Of a stretch of 64,000 nt of DNA, positions 11,519-64,000 are shown piece after piece. This DNA comes from a virus. The stretch covers positions 124,001 to 188,000 of the IMG/VR virus record IMGVR_UViG_3300020172_006270. One strand, written 5' to 3'. Below the pieces are notes generated by a model, which searched no databases, was not told the origin of the DNA, and saw only the letters and a program-made list of their open reading frames with translations. How positions within the stretch are numbered: the stretch's first letter is position 1; the number at the start of each line of letters is the position of its first letter. Made by a program: the position numbers and the translations under genes.

Positions 11519-11524
11519 TATTTA
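11519..11524 (-). promoter_or_regulatory. TAAATA box 4 nt before ATG (leaderless-type late promoter)
   Basis: Minus-strand TAAATA, then GGGC, then the ATG of the C39-like peptidase. It lies inside the end of the upstream gene. Part of a recurring class in this window. Confidence 0.55.
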
Positions 11525-12292
11525 TGACTGAGCATTGTATTGAGCCAAAAATTGTGGCACCAATTGCATGATTTGATCGTGCGGATTTTCGTGGTTATAG
11601 CCAAATCTATTGACATTTTTTTGCCAAACTTCAGGCTTTGCAAAACCGCTGAAGTAATTCTTATGGGTTGTGGTGAACCCCGGCTTGTCCAATATTGATT
11701 GTGCTTTGGTTAAATCGAATGGTTCGCCGGGGAAGTTTTTGGCATACAAATAGGCCATTTGTCTGGCGTGCGCTCGAACCTCTCCGGGATTGCTCATGTA
11801 TTGCATCGCCATGCGGTGCTTATCGTCGCCTTCCCAATCGTTTGAATCATATTCTGCACCCACATTGTAAATGTGTTCTGCTTCATGGTGCATTGCCGAT
11901 TTAAGAGTTGCCAAATGTGCATCAACATCTTCTATGCTCTTGGCATAGTTGAAAGGATACATATTGATGACAAAGCCCTCGAACTTGCCGTTGTTGTGAA
12001 CGGTATCGGCAGCATTGTGGCCCAGCTTGAGTTTGAATTGAACTCGTTGACCAGCAATATCAGCGGGGAAGATGTTGGGCAGCACAAATTCGCCGTTTTG
12101 AACAGCGTCTTGCGGCCAAACTTGTCTGACGTAGTTCGTATACGTCTGATTTGGCTGACCGGCCTGCATGTCTCTCTTTTTGAGAGCGGTGGCCTTGTCA
12201 AGAATATCTTCAAGAAAACGTGCGACTTGAATCTCAACGATGTGTTGAGATTCTTGAAGATTTAGCCAATGATGAAATGAAAACTTCCCCAT
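11522..12292 (-). CDS. Capsid-targeting-like N-terminus on a zincin metalloprotease-like protein
   Basis: 256 aa. Begins MGKFSFHHWLNLQES: the F-x-x-W-L-x-L-x-E module, with LQE as the predicted cut site. Residues 136-140 are HEAEH, an HExxH zinc site, and E171 in NPGEVRAHA is a good third ligand. The surroundings are helical. It is expressed from a box inside a terminator hairpin with no Shine-Dalgarno. I infer a head-packaged protease delivered with the DNA. Confidence 0.7.
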   Translation of the reverse strand: MGKFSFHHWLNLQESQHIVEIQVARFLEDILDKATALKKRDMQAGQPNQTYTNYVRQVWPQDAVQNGEFVLPNIFPADIAGQRVQFKLKLGHNAADTVHNNGKFEGFVINMYPFNYAKSIEDVDAHLATLKSAMHHEAEHIYNVGAEYDSNDWEGDDKHRMAMQYMSNPGEVRAHARQMAYLYAKNFPGEPFDLTKAQSILDKPGFTTTHKNYFSGFAKPEVWQKNVNRFGYNHENPHDQIMQLVPQFLAQYNAQS

Positions 12293-39809: not shown

Positions 39810-40607
39810 TCAGTAATTTTTCCAAATCACTTCGACCTTTTTCTCTTTCGTCTTCTGTTGCGACGAGTGATTTGCAATCTTTTTCTTTTCGACATTCCAT
39901 TCTTTATACAGTCGATTGTATAAAGGCGAAGCGTATCCGCTAATCATCGCTTTGCCCTGAAATGCGTTCAAAGCATGAGCCAATTCAATATGATCGTCGG
40001 TAGTCATTTCCGACGCATATACGGTTTTGGATACTCGTGTTTCGTGCAAATATGGTGGATCACAATATACGAAAGTATTTGGCGAGTTAAATGCCTTCAT
40101 GACCTCGGTAGCAGGCTTATTGAAGATATAGACTTCTCTTATTCGCTCTGCTAAATCCGGCAAGCCTTTTACAGCGGTCATCCATGCGTTGACATCTCCA
40201 GGTTGACCGCCTCGTAGACGATTGCTCCAAGCAAATGCTTTTTTCAACCCGCCACGGCTCATGCGTCGAACAATAAATTCGTTAACCGCTTGATCCAGAT
40301 AATCGTCGTACTGAGTCTTCTTGCTGGCTCTGTCGAATGTTTCTTCGCAATACTTGCAGAGGTTCAGACGCCGAATCAACTCTCTCGGCTCATCTCGTAA
40401 AGCCTGATAGATTTGAATGACGTTTGGATCGAGATCGTTCATTATCTCGATGGCAGATTTTTCTTTATTCAAAAGGACATTCGCACCCCCACAAAAGGGT
40501 TCCAAGTACGTCATTTCTTTGTACTGTTCAGGAAAATGCGAAATGATCCATTGTGCCAAATAGAATTTTCCACCGTGGCACTTAAACACTGGTCTGATGG
40601 TTTTCAT
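39810..40607 (-). CDS. dam: DNA adenine methyltransferase (Dam-like, N6)
   Basis: 265 aa. K-x-x-GGK at residues 9-14 with LEPFCGGANV (35-44) binds SAM; DPPYLHETR (about 178) is the catalytic DPPY. Order and length fit the Dam/M.EcoDam alpha class. It methylates adenine in a short target, probably protecting phage DNA from restriction or marking it. Overlaps the small zinc-ribbon gene upstream by 26 nt. Confidence 0.93.
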   Translation of the reverse strand: MKTIRPVFKCHGGKFYLAQWIISHFPEQYKEMTYLEPFCGGANVLLNKEKSAIEIMNDLDPNVIQIYQALRDEPRELIRRLNLCKYCEETFDRASKKTQYDDYLDQAVNEFIVRRMSRGGLKKAFAWSNRLRGGQPGDVNAWMTAVKGLPDLAERIREVYIFNKPATEVMKAFNSPNTFVYCDPPYLHETRVSKTVYASEMTTDDHIELAHALNAFQGKAMISGYASPLYNRLYKEWNVEKKKIANHSSQQKTKEKKVEVIWKNY

Positions 40608-52309: not shown

Positions 52310-52807
52310 ATGGGTCAGAAGTTTATTTGGTCTGCGGAATGGAGAGACGATAAGACATGGCAGCTTATCGCACCGCCTGCTCCTGTACAAATTGGCACAC
52401 GTCCACATTTGACCATAGAAGAAATAGCCGTGCAGCATGGCAATAATACTGCGTGGATACCCGGCAAGGCATCCTGGAATGAAACAAAGATCACCTATAA
52501 CGACGTAGAAAATGAAGAAGGTGGTGCGTTGTTTATGCGATGGGTGTCTGAGCAATATCGTGCCTTAGACACAACAGAAAGCCGTGGCTGGCAATCAGAA
52601 CGAGCGACAGTTATTTTGAGGCTACATGGTGGAAATGGTGAAGTTTTAGAAGTGTGGTACTTGGAAGATTCTTTTATCACCGCTCTGGATTTTGGCTGTC
52701 CAGGCTACACTAGCTCCTTAGATTACGAGCTAAATGTTGCTGTTAGATATTCCGATGTCAGCTATTCGACACCTGATCCTAAAACATGGCTGAAGCCACT
52801 TACTTGA
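52310..52807 (+). CDS. Tail-tube-like virion protein
   Basis: 165 aa, CAGGAG before the ATG and TATAAT at 52286-52291. The second half has the strand order of tail-tube proteins: ATVILRLHGGNGEVLEVWYL followed by EDSFITALDFG and SLDYELNVAVRYSDVSY, as in T4 gp19-type proteins. The fold is inferred from pattern only. Overlaps the convergent minus gene by 8 nt. Confidence 0.45.
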   Translation: MGQKFIWSAEWRDDKTWQLIAPPAPVQIGTRPHLTIEEIAVQHGNNTAWIPGKASWNETKITYNDVENEEGGALFMRWVSEQYRALDTTESRGWQSERATVILRLHGGNGEVLEVWYLEDSFITALDFGCPGYTSSLDYELNVAVRYSDVSYSTPDPKTWLKPLT

Positions 52808-53000
52808 CGGGAACTGCTGTTGCACCACCTGCTCCTTTGCAAGCTCCACCTGGGCCGGGACCACCACCCATGCCACACAATTTTAGATCGTGTGGTTTTG
52901 GAGTTGTATCTTTTGGGCCGGGCTTAAACAAAGAGTCTTGAGCCTTCCCTTTGCTGATCCAACCGCCTTCGTTCAATGATAGCCAATGTTTGAAATCCAT
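52800..53000 (-). CDS. Small protein with capsid-targeting-like start (66 aa)
   Basis: MDFKHWLSLNEGG: F-x-x-W-L-x-L-N-E, one of the clearest copies. Then a short Gly/Pro/Lys tail. TACATA lies four bases before the ATG. After cleavage at LNE little would remain, so a packaged peptide is likely. Confidence 0.65.
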   Translation of the reverse strand: MDFKHWLSLNEGGWISKGKAQDSLFKPGPKDTTPKPHDLKLCGMGGGPGPGGACKGAGGATAVPVK

Positions 53001-53072: not shown

Positions 53073-53558
53073 CTACTTCTTCAACTGATACAACCCACGT
53101 CCCGACCGTTCGATGTAGCCACGTTTGACCATCCGACTCAGTTCGACACTAGGATTGGTGGAGTTTCCGTGCTTCTCCAGGAAGTCTTTGATTTGCTTCG
53201 TGTCCAACGGCCTTCCGTTCTTGCGAAGACATTCTGTAATCAAAGTTCCCGTCGCATCAGACGGTTCACGAGTTCGACTTTCAGACCTTGGAGGCTGACT
53301 CAGGGTTTGACTCATCAATGGGCCGACATGCTTCCTCAACGAGTCTCGTAAATCGTTGATTTGATTCTCGTGGCCTTTGATGTCCTGTTTCCGTTCCTCG
53401 ATCTGTTCTTCGTGCCATTTGATCTTCTCCAAGACCTTTCCAATGGCATTGTGAAGTCCAAGAATCTCTTGTTCGTCCGTGTCGGCAATGACCGGGGCGA
53501 CAATCTTTTCCGGTTCTTCTGTTGCGGTGGCGTCCATGCCCTCTTGCGTTGTAGTCAT
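53073..53558 (-). CDS. Coiled-coil plus winged-helix protein
   Basis: 161 aa. Residues about 30-80 form a coiled coil (LEKIKWHEEQIEERKQDIKG). Residues about 105-160 fit a winged helix (ITECLRKNGRPLDTKQIKDF; VELSRMVKRGYIERSGRGLY). Probable dimeric DNA-binding regulator. A TTGCAT-16 nt-TAAAAT promoter lies upstream. Confidence 0.65.
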   Translation of the reverse strand: MTTTQEGMDATATEEPEKIVAPVIADTDEQEILGLHNAIGKVLEKIKWHEEQIEERKQDIKGHENQINDLRDSLRKHVGPLMSQTLSQPPRSESRTREPSDATGTLITECLRKNGRPLDTKQIKDFLEKHGNSTNPSVELSRMVKRGYIERSGRGLYQLKK

Positions 53559-53666: not shown

Positions 53667-53978
53667 TTATCCGTCGAATTGAGAAACTTCCCAAGGATCG
53701 GTGATGCTTCTGTGGACTTTTGTTGGCTTTACAACCCCATAATCAACAAAAGCCTCATCAATTAGTTTCTTTCCATAACGTGTCAAAATGTCCTTGGTTG
53801 GAATGAACACATTTGGATCAAGGACAACTGGCGTTTGCGTGATGGGAATATATGGTGCGTAGAAATATCCGCTGTCCATATAGGAACTTCCTTTGAATCC
53901 CATGAGATTTCCCCCGCCCGAAAAAAGAGGGTCTTTATAGGTTTTGAGTCGTATTTCTTTTGGTTCTCGGTCGATCAT
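53667..53978 (-). CDS. Free-standing copy of the C-terminal part of the major capsid protein
   Basis: 103 aa. Residues 14-72 align with the end of the capsid protein at 61296: YKDPLF, SYMDSGYFY, TQTPVVLDP and ILTRYGKKL are shared, 44 of 59 by my hand count. The DNA has diverged at many third positions, so it is an old, kept copy. It starts MIDREPKEIR, TATAAT ends 5 nt before its ATG, and it ends ITDPWEVSQFDG, a peptide also at the start of the protein at 55508. It may be a capsid-vertex or accessory piece, or a regulator of assembly. Confidence 0.7.
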   Translation of the reverse strand: MIDREPKEIRLKTYKDPLFSGGGNLMGFKGSSYMDSGYFYAPYIPITQTPVVLDPNVFIPTKDILTRYGKKLIDEAFVDYGVVKPTKVHRSITDPWEVSQFDG

Positions 53979-54030: not shown

Positions 54031-54762
54031 ATGAACTTTTCAGAATGGTTATCAACTAATGAAGCTCGCTGGCGAGGCCCCGTAGGTGGAGCCTTTGGCC
54101 GTGATTCTCGTCGTATGCAACAACAACAAAAGCCGGTGACACCTGTGGCAAAACCAGAAGAAGAATCGCCCAAGCCAGATTTAGGACATGCTCCCAACCC
54201 TGCTGAACGTACTCCACCGCCTCAAATGCGTATGGGCAATAGGTTCCAGAATATTGACCAGAGAGTTCAATATGGAAAGAGCATTGAAAAGCAAATATTT
54301 GATAGCTTGGTTCGATGTGGGATGAAGCTCCGTGAACCGTCCAGCCAAGAAGATATGTACGACAAGATTGACGGCTGGTGGGAAACGCCGAGTGGTGAGA
54401 AGCCTATTCAGATCAAATATCGTGACACCGGAGATGATATTCTCTTCGAGGTAATGAAGGATTATCGACGTGGCGTGCCAGGAAGAGACATGGTTGGTAA
54501 AGCTGAGTTTTATGCCGTGCTAACTCGTGCCGGAGGCAAAATCGTATTAGTGAGCGTTGCAGAAGCCAAAAAGCTCATAGAAGAGATGCGTACCAGAGCC
54601 GAAGATGAAGGGTTTGACCAGCGTGGCAACTTCCGCATGGGTGGTGCAATATTGCGAGTTCGACCTGATCCACGATCACAACAAGATAAACTCATGGCGT
54701 ATATTCCGGTTTCAATGCTCAAGCAAATCACGCCGCCATGTTCTGCCCAAGTAAAATTCTAA
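54031..54762 (+). CDS. Capsid-targeted PD-(D/E)XK nuclease-like protein
   Basis: 243 aa. MNFSEWLSTNEAR carries the module with TNE as the cut site. A Pro/Gln-rich linker (about 30-68) follows, then a domain with E86 (YGKSIEKQIF), D114 (DKIDGWW) and Q127-I-K129 (PIQIKYR), the order of the restriction-fold nuclease site. I infer a nuclease packaged in the head and injected. It is followed 7 nt later by a methyltransferase. Confidence 0.7.
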   Translation: MNFSEWLSTNEARWRGPVGGAFGRDSRRMQQQQKPVTPVAKPEEESPKPDLGHAPNPAERTPPPQMRMGNRFQNIDQRVQYGKSIEKQIFDSLVRCGMKLREPSSQEDMYDKIDGWWETPSGEKPIQIKYRDTGDDILFEVMKDYRRGVPGRDMVGKAEFYAVLTRAGGKIVLVSVAEAKKLIEEMRTRAEDEGFDQRGNFRMGGAILRVRPDPRSQQDKLMAYIPVSMLKQITPPCSAQVKF

Positions 54763-59973: not shown

Positions 59974-60432
59974 ATGGCACCACAAGAAAATGAACAGAAT
60001 CCAATGTCTCTTGAAAACCTACCTGCTTACTTGAAGTCTCTTAAAGAGAAAGGAAGCACAGGTGATTGTCTTGTTGATATGGGAAGGATTGAGGAACCAA
60101 AGAAAATGCCTAATAAATGGTTATGGACTCAGCGAATCTTGTTTACGCTTGCTATCTGCATGATCGCTGGCACAACCGGGTTAATTACTTATGATTTAGC
60201 GTCACGACAAGAGCTTACTGTCGTGGTGAATCTCAACAAAGACGCCAACCCAGCCCAGGCAATTCCAGAAATGGTTTCTGACAGTGGCGGCACTGTTATA
60301 GCAGTCAAACAACATGACAGCACTTCAGCTTATGAAGTCAAGGTGTCTACCCGCAAGAGCCGGAAAGCGCTTTTGGAATGGCTCAACAAGAACAAGAACG
60401 TCAAAGAAGTGAAGCTAAAAGAAGACAAATGA
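59974..60432 (+). CDS. Single-pass membrane protein (152 aa)
   Basis: MAPQENEQNPMSLENLPAYL, then a transmembrane segment ILFTLAICMIAGTTGLITY (about residues 52-70). The outside part is a small alpha/beta domain with ELTVVVNLNKD and KVSTRKSRKALLEWLNKNK. Overlaps the GNAT gene (ATGA). Confidence 0.65.
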   Translation: MAPQENEQNPMSLENLPAYLKSLKEKGSTGDCLVDMGRIEEPKKMPNKWLWTQRILFTLAICMIAGTTGLITYDLASRQELTVVVNLNKDANPAQAIPEMVSDSGGTVIAVKQHDSTSAYEVKVSTRKSRKALLEWLNKNKNVKEVKLKEDK

Positions 60433-60845
60433 TAATTGAATTCAAACAATGGTTGGAGAATAGCTTTCCAGAAGCAGCCTGGGGTCCATCTTCTTTAGTT
60501 GGAAGCAATGGAACTTCGCTCAGAGTCAATGGTGGATACATCGACATTCAACCTGTTACTAAATGGTCGCCCAGAAGCCAATCTGTAATCGACTTTTACG
60601 TTGATGAAGCCAAAAGGAATCAAGGAATTGGAGATTGGCTAGTCAAACAAGCTAAATTGAAATTCAAAGATTTGGGAGCGCAAGTATCATCAATTCCTTC
60701 GATGAAAGTTTTCTTCAATAATGGATTTAGAAATCCAAATATGGCAAATCAATCATTTGAAGATCATGTGAAAGAATTTCAAAACAATGGCTCATCACTC
60801 TTCCTAGCCATGAATGACGACCAAGGAAAGCCTTACTTTAATTGA
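60429..60845 (+). CDS. Capsid-targeted GNAT acetyltransferase-like protein
   Basis: 138 aa, start by ATGA overlap. MIIEFKQWLENSFPEAA carries the module. The GNAT core has VDEAKRNQGIGDWL, the R/Q-x-x-G-x-G acetyl-CoA loop, and MKVFFNNGFR. Acetylates an unknown amine. Packaging and injection are inferred from the N-terminus. Confidence 0.7.
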   Translation: MIIEFKQWLENSFPEAAWGPSSLVGSNGTSLRVNGGYIDIQPVTKWSPRSQSVIDFYVDEAKRNQGIGDWLVKQAKLKFKDLGAQVSSIPSMKVFFNNGFRNPNMANQSFEDHVKEFQNNGSSLFLAMNDDQGKPYFN

Positions 60846-61295: not shown

Positions 61296-62732
61296 TTAGA
61301 TGACGAAGTTAGCGATGCTCATACGAGCATAGAACTTGGCACCTTCACGCAGCAATTTCTTGCCGTAGCGTGTCAGAATACCCTTGCGTGGGCAGAAGGA
61401 TTCTGGGTCGAGGACCACAGGTGTCTGTGTCAGTGGAACGTATGGGCAGTAGAAGTAACCACTGTCCATGTAGCTGTCGCCCTTGTAACCCATCAAAATC
61501 TGGTTGGATGGGAAGAGAGGGTCTTTGTACAGTCTCCAACGGTTGTTAACAGTACCAACATACTGGATGCCCAGGCTGCTAGTGAATGTTTCGCTTGGGG
61601 CTGGAGCAAAACCTGCGGTTGCTGTCTCGAAGATCGAGGCAACTTCAGGGCTGGTTACGAGCCAGTTAGCTCCACCACGAAGCGTCTTACGGTGGATGAC
61701 GTTAGAAACTTCAACAACCTTGACATACAACGACTCATACTTTTCCTTGATGGTTTCACCAAGAGCAGTATTGAAGTCCCAAGCGGTTACTGTACCGCTG
61801 TTGTTGCGAAGGTCGGTTAGAACTTCACGGTCGATTTCGAGGTTGATTTCCTGGGCCAATACAGCGGTCAGTTCGGCTTCTGCGTCCAGGTTGTGCTGGC
61901 TGCGGAGGTCTTGCTGTGCTTCATAGGACCATACAGCCTTCAACTTACGGGTCTTGGCGGCAATTTCTTCCGACTCGATCACGAGGTTGATTTCTGGGAG
62001 GTCTTGCTGGCACTCCATGTTGTACTCATAGCTGATGACAGCGTGGTTAGCGCCAGGAGCCGAGTTCCATGTGAGGGCGAGTTCGCCAGTGTTGTTGTTC
62101 AAGCTACCTGCTGTAACCTTAACGCTAGGAGCGCCAATGTCAGTGAAGGTGAAGCTACCACCGGACGAAACGATGAATGTCTGGACAGCAGTGCTGCCAT
62201 CATAAATCGTACCAGTTACAGTACCGGCCAAAACTGGTGTGTGTTCCAAAGGAGTGAACACAGCAGCGGTGTCAGTACCAGCGTCAGTCGAGGTCGTCTC
62301 GTTCTGAATGAACTGGTGGGTGTAGAAGATGTCCAGGTTGGCAGTACCGTCAGCGGTCTGCATCAACGAGTTGGCGTCATCACCAGGGAAACCACCGTTG
62401 TTAGAAGCGCCACGGGTTGCACCCTTGTTGCTGCTATAACGGAAGCGTAGGTAATACACCAGACCTGTTGGGCCTAGCAATGGCTGAACGCTAACAATCT
62501 TGTTGGCGATCAACTGTGGGTAAATACGACGGACAAGCGGAATCGAGATTCGCTTGAACTGAGCGATGTCGCCAGTGTCGGTTGAGACTTCATTCATGAG
62601 TCTCTGGTTTTCGAGTAGAACTGCTGTGGCAGAGCGAACGTAACGGTCCTGAATACCTTCGAGGAGTCCGGTCTTGCCCCAACGAGATTCTAGCTCCTTA
62701 GCCTCATTCAAAAATCGAGAATTTGCGTTCAT
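61296..62732 (-). CDS. Major capsid protein (T4 gp23-like)
   Basis: 478 aa, GAGGATAAC before the ATG. Helical N-terminus (MNANSRFLNEAKELESRWGK ... LLENQRLMNE) is the likely prohead-protease-removed part, with LMNE as a candidate cut. RRIYPQLIANKIVSVQPLLG and LVYYLRFRYSS are typical gp23 segments; SYMDSGYFYCPYVPLTQTPV and ILTRYGKKL lie at the C-terminus. Follows scaffold and protease genes as in T4. Confidence 0.92.
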   Translation of the reverse strand: MNANSRFLNEAKELESRWGKTGLLEGIQDRYVRSATAVLLENQRLMNEVSTDTGDIAQFKRISIPLVRRIYPQLIANKIVSVQPLLGPTGLVYYLRFRYSSNKGATRGASNNGGFPGDDANSLMQTADGTANLDIFYTHQFIQNETTSTDAGTDTAAVFTPLEHTPVLAGTVTGTIYDGSTAVQTFIVSSGGSFTFTDIGAPSVKVTAGSLNNNTGELALTWNSAPGANHAVISYEYNMECQQDLPEINLVIESEEIAAKTRKLKAVWSYEAQQDLRSQHNLDAEAELTAVLAQEINLEIDREVLTDLRNNSGTVTAWDFNTALGETIKEKYESLYVKVVEVSNVIHRKTLRGGANWLVTSPEVASIFETATAGFAPAPSETFTSSLGIQYVGTVNNRWRLYKDPLFPSNQILMGYKGDSYMDSGYFYCPYVPLTQTPVVLDPESFCPRKGILTRYGKKLLREGAKFYARMSIANFVI

Positions 62733-62776: not shown

Positions 62777-63673
62777 TTATTGAGCTTGTTTCAAACCCGA
62801 CAGGATCAACAGTTGATCCACGTCATTGTTTGTGGGTGCAGCGTATTCCGAAATCACTACACCATCATCGGATGTCTTACCTCTCCCCGTTACATTCGTT
62901 GCATTCGTTGTTCTTTCTTTCTGCTCGTTGACAACCTCGGTCTTCTTCACAGACTTGATGGCCTTACGGCTCTCTGTGATAAGTTCCTGAGACTGACGCA
63001 CGGCTTCGTTCAACTTGGTGTTTTCTGTGGAGAGACGGATGTTGCGTGCTTCCATAATGCGAAGCTGGCCCTTCATCTCTTCTACACTCTTGTTGACTTC
63101 TTCCAGCTTGCTGGAAGAAACTGATGCGAAATCATCGTCCGACAAGTAGTTGCTGGTCAGATCAATGATCTTGTCCAGAGTAACCTTGTGTTCGGCCATA
63201 CGAGGATCGTTTAATACGTCCCGCTTGGCTTGTTCATAGATTTCCTGGCCCTTGAATTGCAAGAACTGGTCAACCTTATCGACAATGTATTCCTTCATCT
63301 CAGCCAGTTTCTTGTCGTACTCTTCGTACATCTCGACTTCTAGCTGCTGATTCTTGTCTCGCTCGCCCTTGAGCATCTGGTATGCTTCTTCATACCCTTC
63401 CTCAAGTGCTGCCTTGTACTCTTCACCCTGAAGCTCAAGACGGTTACGAAGATCGCCAATAATAGCGTATGCTTCTTCGTAGCCTTTCTCTGCTGTCTTT
63501 TCAGCGTTCGCCAACTCGCTAGTAAGCTCGGCGTAGGCTTCTTCAAGTTTCTGATTGTACTCAGTTTCGAGATTTACCTTAGCCTGCTCTAGCATGTCCT
63601 TGACGGCGGCTGCGACTTCGTTAATCTCAGATTCAGGTAGGAGCTTCTTCAGTGCTTCTGTAATCTTATCCAT
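62777..63673 (-). CDS. Prohead core scaffold (T4 gp22-like)
   Basis: 298 aa, almost all coiled coil and Glu-rich (AKVNLETEYNQKLEEAYAEL; YEEAYAIIGDLRNRLELQGE). The C-terminal tail is short and polar. Position between protease and capsid genes identifies it as the internal scaffold, degraded by the protease during maturation. ATG overlaps the protease stop (TAATG). Confidence 0.85.
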   Translation of the reverse strand: MDKITEALKKLLPESEINEVAAAVKDMLEQAKVNLETEYNQKLEEAYAELTSELANAEKTAEKGYEEAYAIIGDLRNRLELQGEEYKAALEEGYEEAYQMLKGERDKNQQLEVEMYEEYDKKLAEMKEYIVDKVDQFLQFKGQEIYEQAKRDVLNDPRMAEHKVTLDKIIDLTSNYLSDDDFASVSSSKLEEVNKSVEEMKGQLRIMEARNIRLSTENTKLNEAVRQSQELITESRKAIKSVKKTEVVNEQKERTTNATNVTGRGKTSDDGVVISEYAAPTNNDVDQLLILSGLKQAQ

Positions 63674-64000
63674 TAGCCTAACCTCGCTTTGATATTGCTA
63701 GTTTGTTGTTCAATGATCCCGCCCAAGCAAGCAATAAGTGCTTCTTTATTTACATTATGTATGCGGCTACATTCATTTTTCGCCACATTTTTGTGAATTT
63801 CAGAACTTGGTGCTGGTGTGTAACTTTCTTTCTTGCCAACGACCTTCTCCTGAAAGGCGTTGTAGGTGCTAGGATCAGCAACAGCATCGAAAGTAATTAG
63901 CTTGTAGCTTTCGCCAATAACTAAAATTCCATTCTCATCACTGCGACCGTTGCCAACGCCTCGGCTGCTGATTCCAACTCTCACCCCGTCAGACAAAAGA
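63673..64000 (-). CDS. Prohead protease (T4 gp21-like), C-terminal part
   Basis: The gene continues past the right edge; 109 residues are visible. LSDGVRVGISSRGVG carries the serine of the S78-type prohead protease, followed by YKLITFDAVADPST, the segment after it in the family. The protease cuts scaffold, capsid and internal proteins at (L/I)-x-E sites, the same sites predicted in the targeted proteins here. Confidence 0.8.
   Translation of the reverse strand, partial: LLSDGVRVGISSRGVGNGRSDENGILVIGESYKLITFDAVADPSTYNAFQEKVVGKKESYTPAPSSEIHKNVAKNECSRIHNVNKEALIACLGGIIEQQTSNIKARLG

Follow-up and report, generated by a model that had tools for sequence, protein, structure and literature searches.

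Introduction

Does a phage gene that joins a putative capsid-targeting sequence to a restriction-enzyme-like fold encode a nuclease that travels in the virus head and enters the next cell together with the genome? The question is raised by a free-standing gene in a 64,000-nucleotide stretch of DNA (the window), which comprises bases 124001-188000 of a 223,268-base IMG/VR phage record (genome label G000) from a large T4-like virus of bacteria. The capsid-tag route and the PD-(D/E)XK fold are both already known, and the new element is a nuclease as the natural cargo of this route. To our knowledge, nuclease cargoes of the capsid tag are known only as laboratory fusions, and the natural combination of such a tag with a PD-(D/E)XK domain was not found in the literature searched, which covered few subscription journals. 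If the reading is true, T4-like phages deliver DNA-cutting enzymes by the capsid-tag route at time zero, and a naturally tagged nuclease would open the testable question of how such an enzyme remains harmless amid tightly packed DNA.

In this study the tag, the linker, the predicted fold, the conserved active site, selection, and the co-occurrence with T4-type head genes were determined computationally. The reading that we favor, and hold to be reasonably probable, is that of a natural counterpart of the T4 internal head proteins with a nuclease as cargo, which is ejected with the genome and cuts DNA early.

Gene layout and family members

The gene and its parts are as follows.

54031..54762 (+), predicted nuclease of the PD-(D/E)XK type with a capsid-targeting sequence (CTS), whole gene; ATG-start open reading frame, 243 aa
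54031..54063 (+), putative CTS, residues 1-11, MNFSEWLSTNE; from the pattern and the T4 CTS rules (PMC9026906)
54064..54105 (+), conserved block ARWRGPVGGAFGRD, residues 12-25, past the presumed cleavage site
54106..54240 (+), Pro/Gln-rich disordered linker, residues 26-70; from pLDDT, composition, and variable length
54241..54759 (+), predicted PD-(D/E)XK nuclease domain, residues 71-243; from AlphaFold2 with alignment, Foldseek, and hhalign
54286..54288 (+), E86, putative active-site helix glutamate; from the alignment and the equivalent in PfWMP3_05
54370..54372 (+), D114, putative active-site aspartate; invariant in nine members, with an equivalent in PfWMP3_05
54409..54417 (+), Q127-I128-K129, (D/E/Q)-x-K motif; no change at Q or K across the nine members
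54481..54489 (+), G151-R152-D153, family signature; invariant in the alignment of eight and in L090

A preliminary description of this DNA had proposed a capsid module joined by a Pro-rich linker to a restriction-fold site, with D114 and a QIK motif at residues 127-129, and these residues are located at exactly those positions. The linker was also recovered: ten prolines lie within residues 26-70, residues 15-64 are disordered in the AlphaFold2 model (pLDDT <50), and its length varies among relatives, from none in L024 and L036 to more than that of the window protein in L003.

Eight distinct relatives were found in IMG/VR, every one of them on a contig of an uncultured phage. Identity to the window protein, taken from the best tblastn segments, was 90% for L002, 52% for L003, 40% for L026, 34% for L008, 32% for both L024 and L036, and 27% for L009, and L090 is 77% identical to L036. 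The L024/L036 subgroup and the window subgroup were joined by profile comparison (E 1.2e-13). Scans of Pfam, PHROGs, NCBIfam, and PADLOC yielded no significant family for the nuclease protein, and the weak NCBIfam names phd antitoxin and EspK/GogB were rejected as their scores were at chance level. Likewise, PDB sequences gave no match (phmmer/hmmsearch), tblastn searches started from five of the members gave no homologue among 50,697 phage records, and a scan of GTDB genomes with two short peptide patterns gave no relative. A DNA-pattern search returned 10 matches, i.e., four known contigs, one new member (L026), and five unrelated frames. Moreover, two members weakly matched phrog_36294 (181 positions), which is probably the PfWMP3_05 protein of Phormidium phage Pf-WMP3 (181 aa).

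Predicted fold and active site of the nuclease domain

An AlphaFold2 model based on the eight-sequence alignment had block-mean pLDDT values mostly between 82 and 94 in the core; a single-sequence prediction (pLDDT 58) was discarded as too poor. The predicted order of elements is a helix at 75-95 that holds E86, a strand at 115-119 directly past D114, and a strand at 122-129 that ends in QIK, followed by more strands plus a helix. Foldseek ranked PD-(D/E)XK-type nuclease cores at positions 1-11 against the PDB (I-Ssp6803I first, with PvuII, DpnI, Hjc, RecU, and PvuRts1I), each with a weak E value (0.045-0.6; none <0.001). Against predicted viral structures, 11 phage proteins were matched at E <0.001, of which PfWMP3_05 was the best (6.5e-8), and the annotations among these matches (E 6.5e-8 to 1e-3) include NO VEIN C-terminal and PD(D/E)XK endonuclease domain. 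The family could also be aligned with PfWMP3_05 by hhalign (E 9.5e-6), which paired E86, D108, D111, D114, K129, and the GxDI..E motif. The PD-(D/E)XK core, which the preliminary description had wanted checked by structure prediction, is present in the predicted fold and is matched by both PDB and phage structures, and residues 71-243 very probably adopt this fold according to the model.

Residues that are invariant in the alignment of eight include D108, D114, G115, Q127, K129, R131, G134, D136, I137, E140, and G151-R152-D153. L090 retains D114, Q127, K129, and G151-R152-D153, so that the proposed restriction-fold site is kept across nine divergent members; the E86 position is offset by one residue in L024, L036, and L090. 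Judged from the alignments, the active-site residues of the PD-(D/E)XK superfamily (D, (D/E/Q)-x-K) are present in the family. PvuII, I-Ssp6803I, DpnI, Hjc, and RecU share the predicted fold and active-site layout but show no detectable sequence similarity, and the acidic residue of their (D/E)XK motif is a glutamine in the window family. We know of none among them with a capsid tag. PfWMP3_05 shares the nuclease core, with equivalents of E86, D114, K129, and GxDI..E, but it lacks the tag and the linker and belongs to a T7-like phage, where it is encoded beside replication-type genes.

The fold matches bear on the possibility that a head-borne nuclease acts on the phage's own DNA, either by branch resolution or end trimming during packaging, or by processing of genome ends or of recombination intermediates soon after entry, as Hjc or RecU-like enzymes would. 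Hjc and RecU are among the fold matches, with no match to a sequence family, and their presence there is in agreement with such a role, as is the location of the nuclease gene near recombination and replication type genes in L024 and L036. However, resolvases are not the closest matches by fold, a place that is taken by restriction and homing endonucleases. In T4, moreover, branch resolution for packaging is performed by gp49 outside the head and involves no CTS, which counts against an action on the phage's own DNA, and we consider such an action unlikely.

The putative capsid-targeting tag

The tag was defined as M-x(0-3)-[FY]-x-x-[WFY]-[hydrophobic], and in the nuclease protein its aromatic pair consists of F3 and W6. 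The pattern is present in all nine family members and absent from PfWMP3_05, so the tag can be regarded as an addition to the nuclease. In G000 it occurs at 27 of 598 candidate start methionines and at six of 1119 internal ones (Fisher p=3e-8), and shuffling of residues 2-12 of each N-terminus gave a mean of 5.1 tags, with a maximum of 16 in 5000 shuffles, so a few of the 27 tagged N-termini are expected by chance. Five other contigs displayed tag enrichment in the same direction (p 4e-6 to 0.035). The capsid module that had been proposed is therefore a real sequence feature, as indicated by its N-terminal enrichment and by the shuffles.

In the ten-residue CTS of T4, residues 4 and 7 direct packaging and residues 8 and 10 direct processing; the protease gp21 cleaves after L/I-x-E, and targeting also works without processing (PMC9026906). 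The T4 tag MKTYQEFIAEA, identified by search as the start of the T4 internal head protein IpII, fits the tag pattern. The strict gp21 motif is absent from the window protein, which has T-N-E at residues 9-11 with E11 as a possible cleavage point, and from most relatives. L002 also has T-N-E at the expected position, L003 has L-Q-E, and L008 has L-H-E, and a GP..GAFG block comes directly after each of the latter two; the residue 12-25 block ARWRGPVGGAFGRD is identical in L002 and L003. Targeting of the window protein to the head is fairly well supported by these sequence features, and its cleavage by a gp21-type protease is uncertain because T-N-E stands at the cleavage position.

The protein might also be an ordinary intracellular nuclease of the recombination or homing type, with an N-terminus that is not a working capsid tag. 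Several observations agree with this: the free-standing relative PfWMP3_05 is untagged, about five of the 27 tag patterns in G000 are expected by chance, L/I-x-E is missing in most members, and the top PDB match is I-Ssp6803I. Nevertheless, the pattern is found in nine of nine members despite linkers and cores that diverge to <30% identity, and N-terminal tag enrichment is strong in the same genomes, which makes the intracellular role improbable, and somewhat more so than an action of a head nuclease on the phage's own DNA.

The T4 internal proteins IPI, IPII, and IPIII resemble the favored head-delivered nuclease in that they begin with a short tag in which two aromatics, spaced by three residues, precede a hydrophobic residue and Glu, in that a gp21-type protease and gp23 are encoded in the genome, and in that unrelated cargo stands behind a shared tag. 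They differ in their cargo, a small restriction-enzyme inhibitor versus a nuclease-fold domain here, in the strict L/I-x-E that the window protein lacks, and in number, as G000 has far more tagged proteins than the three of T4.

About 20 G000 proteins carry a capsid-tag N-terminus beyond chance, compared with three internal proteins in T4. Some are very short, for example that at window 52800-53000 (-), 66 aa. Three further tagged proteins, two in the window and one in L008, look enzymatic: a protein at window 11522-12292 (-) starts with MGKFSFHHWLNLQE and contains an HHEAEH motif that appears metalloprotease-like by eye, a protein at window 60429-60842 (+) with MIIEFKQWLENS has a weak GNAT match, and L008:3367-4656 (+) combines MINFKVFLEE with a poly(A) polymerase/CCA-adding head domain (PF01743 E 1.6e-18). 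For large phages that are uncultured, the tag census also offers a simple rule by which candidates for head delivery can be listed.

T4-type head genes and gene surroundings

The window also contains genes for head assembly, 7-10 kb from the nuclease gene.

61296..62732 (-), gp23 major capsid protein; PF07068 E 2.3e-88
62777..63673 (-), probable gp22-type prohead core (scaffold) protein; from its position between gp21 and gp23
63847..64000 (-), gp21-type prohead protease, 3' part, which runs past the window; PF03420 Peptidase_S77

The Peptidase_S77 match (PF03420 E 4.8e-27) spans genome positions 187847-188263. An S77 prohead protease and gp23 are both encoded in G000, G001, G003, and G006. 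Among the contigs with relatives, three carry gp21 and gp23 and a fourth carries a gp23-like match, and the others are fragments. Together with the genome-wide census, these T4-type head genes support the capsid targeting that the preliminary description had assumed.

Several smaller features were encountered nearby. A C-terminal fragment of gp23 (window 53667-53978, -; PF07068 E 1.6e-14) lies directly upstream of the nuclease gene, and the contig of L002 has a related short piece in the equivalent place. An internal gp23 fragment, interrupted by one TAA, is present at genome 46037-46351 (+; E 3.8e-16). The 161-aa frame at window 53073-53558 (-) has a C-terminal winged-helix domain of the AbiEi_4 antitoxin type (PF13338 E 7.6e-7). 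The T4 late promoter TATAAATA had one match in the window, which equals the chance expectation, and sigma-70 and terminator scans were at chance level.

Selection

Compared with L002, dN/dS was about 0.6 in the linker and 0.043 in the nuclease core, on which purifying selection is therefore strong. Codons 1-25 (54031-54105) have zero synonymous differences from L002, although pS in the core is 0.59, and conservation of the DNA that flanks the gene is not unusual. Paralogous tag DNA was rejected as a source of this 5' conservation, as there is no second copy in the genome; the identity could stem from a recombination tract or from RNA-level constraint. Those T4 CTS cargoes that have an assigned target inhibit GmrSD restriction enzymes (PMC12373910), which speaks for a catalytically inactive domain that would, like the T4 internal proteins, inhibit the defence nucleases of the host or act as their decoy. 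Here, however, D114, Q127, and K129 are invariant in nine divergent members and the linker is free to vary, as would be expected of an active enzyme, and the inactive reading is highly improbable.

Proposed route of delivery

For the favored head-delivered nuclease, we infer that the protein is packaged, trimmed, and ejected, that its domain is catalytically active, and which DNA it attacks. The nuclease would be made during head assembly and brought to the prohead core by its N-terminal aromatic-x-x-aromatic-hydrophobic tag, where a gp21-type protease may trim it after E11. It would remain in the head while DNA is packaged, leave with the genome into the next cell, and cut DNA within minutes of entry. 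Host DNA or competing mobile DNA would be the likeliest target, and the phage's own DNA would presumably be spared by modification or by enzyme specificity. Points against this reading are the lack of a strict L/I-x-E motif in the window protein and most relatives, the weakness of each single PDB fold match, the T4 late promoter at chance level, and a target that is proposed by analogy.

T4 Alt, an ADP-ribosyltransferase, is a natural capsid-tag cargo. Both Alt and the phage polyvalent proteins (PMC5512222) are head-carried enzymes that are delivered with the DNA at the start of infection, as proposed here, but they belong to other enzyme classes and are large or multidomain, as opposed to a single-domain cargo with a short tag. 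In T4, EcoRI and staphylococcal nuclease that had been fused to IPIII/CTS were packaged and carried into cells, with 20-200 copies per particle (PMC9026906), and the delivery route is therefore physically possible. These constructs also join a tag to a DNA nuclease (PMC9026906), but they were made in the laboratory, whereas the combination described here is natural, conserved across divergent phages, and read from sequence. On addition of calcium, staphylococcal nuclease in T4 heads digested the DNA that was packaged with it (PMC9026906). A natural head nuclease would therefore need some restraint, since a packed nuclease could otherwise destroy the genome, and this need is a further point against the favored reading.

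On this analysis the target may be host, plasmid, or rival DNA. A more specific version, which we put forward only tentatively, is a first-strike restriction-like enzyme that would be stored in the head by its tag, be restrained on the phage's own (e.g., adenine-methylated) DNA, and cut host, plasmid, or rival DNA before phage gene expression, as one of some 20 tagged proteins that include several enzymes.

Methyltransferases and possible self-protection

The methyltransferase that neighbors the nuclease gene had been described as not of the DNA type, and it indeed belongs to Methyltransf_24 (E 1.3e-9). Elsewhere in the window, a DNA methyltransferase gene is present that is a speculative candidate for self-protection.

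39810..40607 (-), D12-class DNA adenine methyltransferase, unlinked to the nuclease gene; PF02086 E 1.7e-26

DNA adenine-type methyltransferase genes are present in the four longest member-bearing contigs, including G000, and are common in large phages. An adjacent DNA methyltransferase is absent at the window locus and was seen only in L009 (genome G004), where an N6/N4 DNA methyltransferase (L009:3453-4547, -; PF01555 E 1e-39) adjoins the nuclease relative in an arrangement similar to that of restriction-modification pairs; elsewhere the D12 gene is unlinked. The presence of these genes permits methylation-based self-protection but does not prove it. As another route to base modification, a thymidylate synthase homologue was sought in G000 and none was found. 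The G004 record has a thymidylate synthase match at C1:77628-79568, in two pieces within one 662-aa frame, and the two pieces lie about 330 aa apart, as would be compatible with a possible intein.
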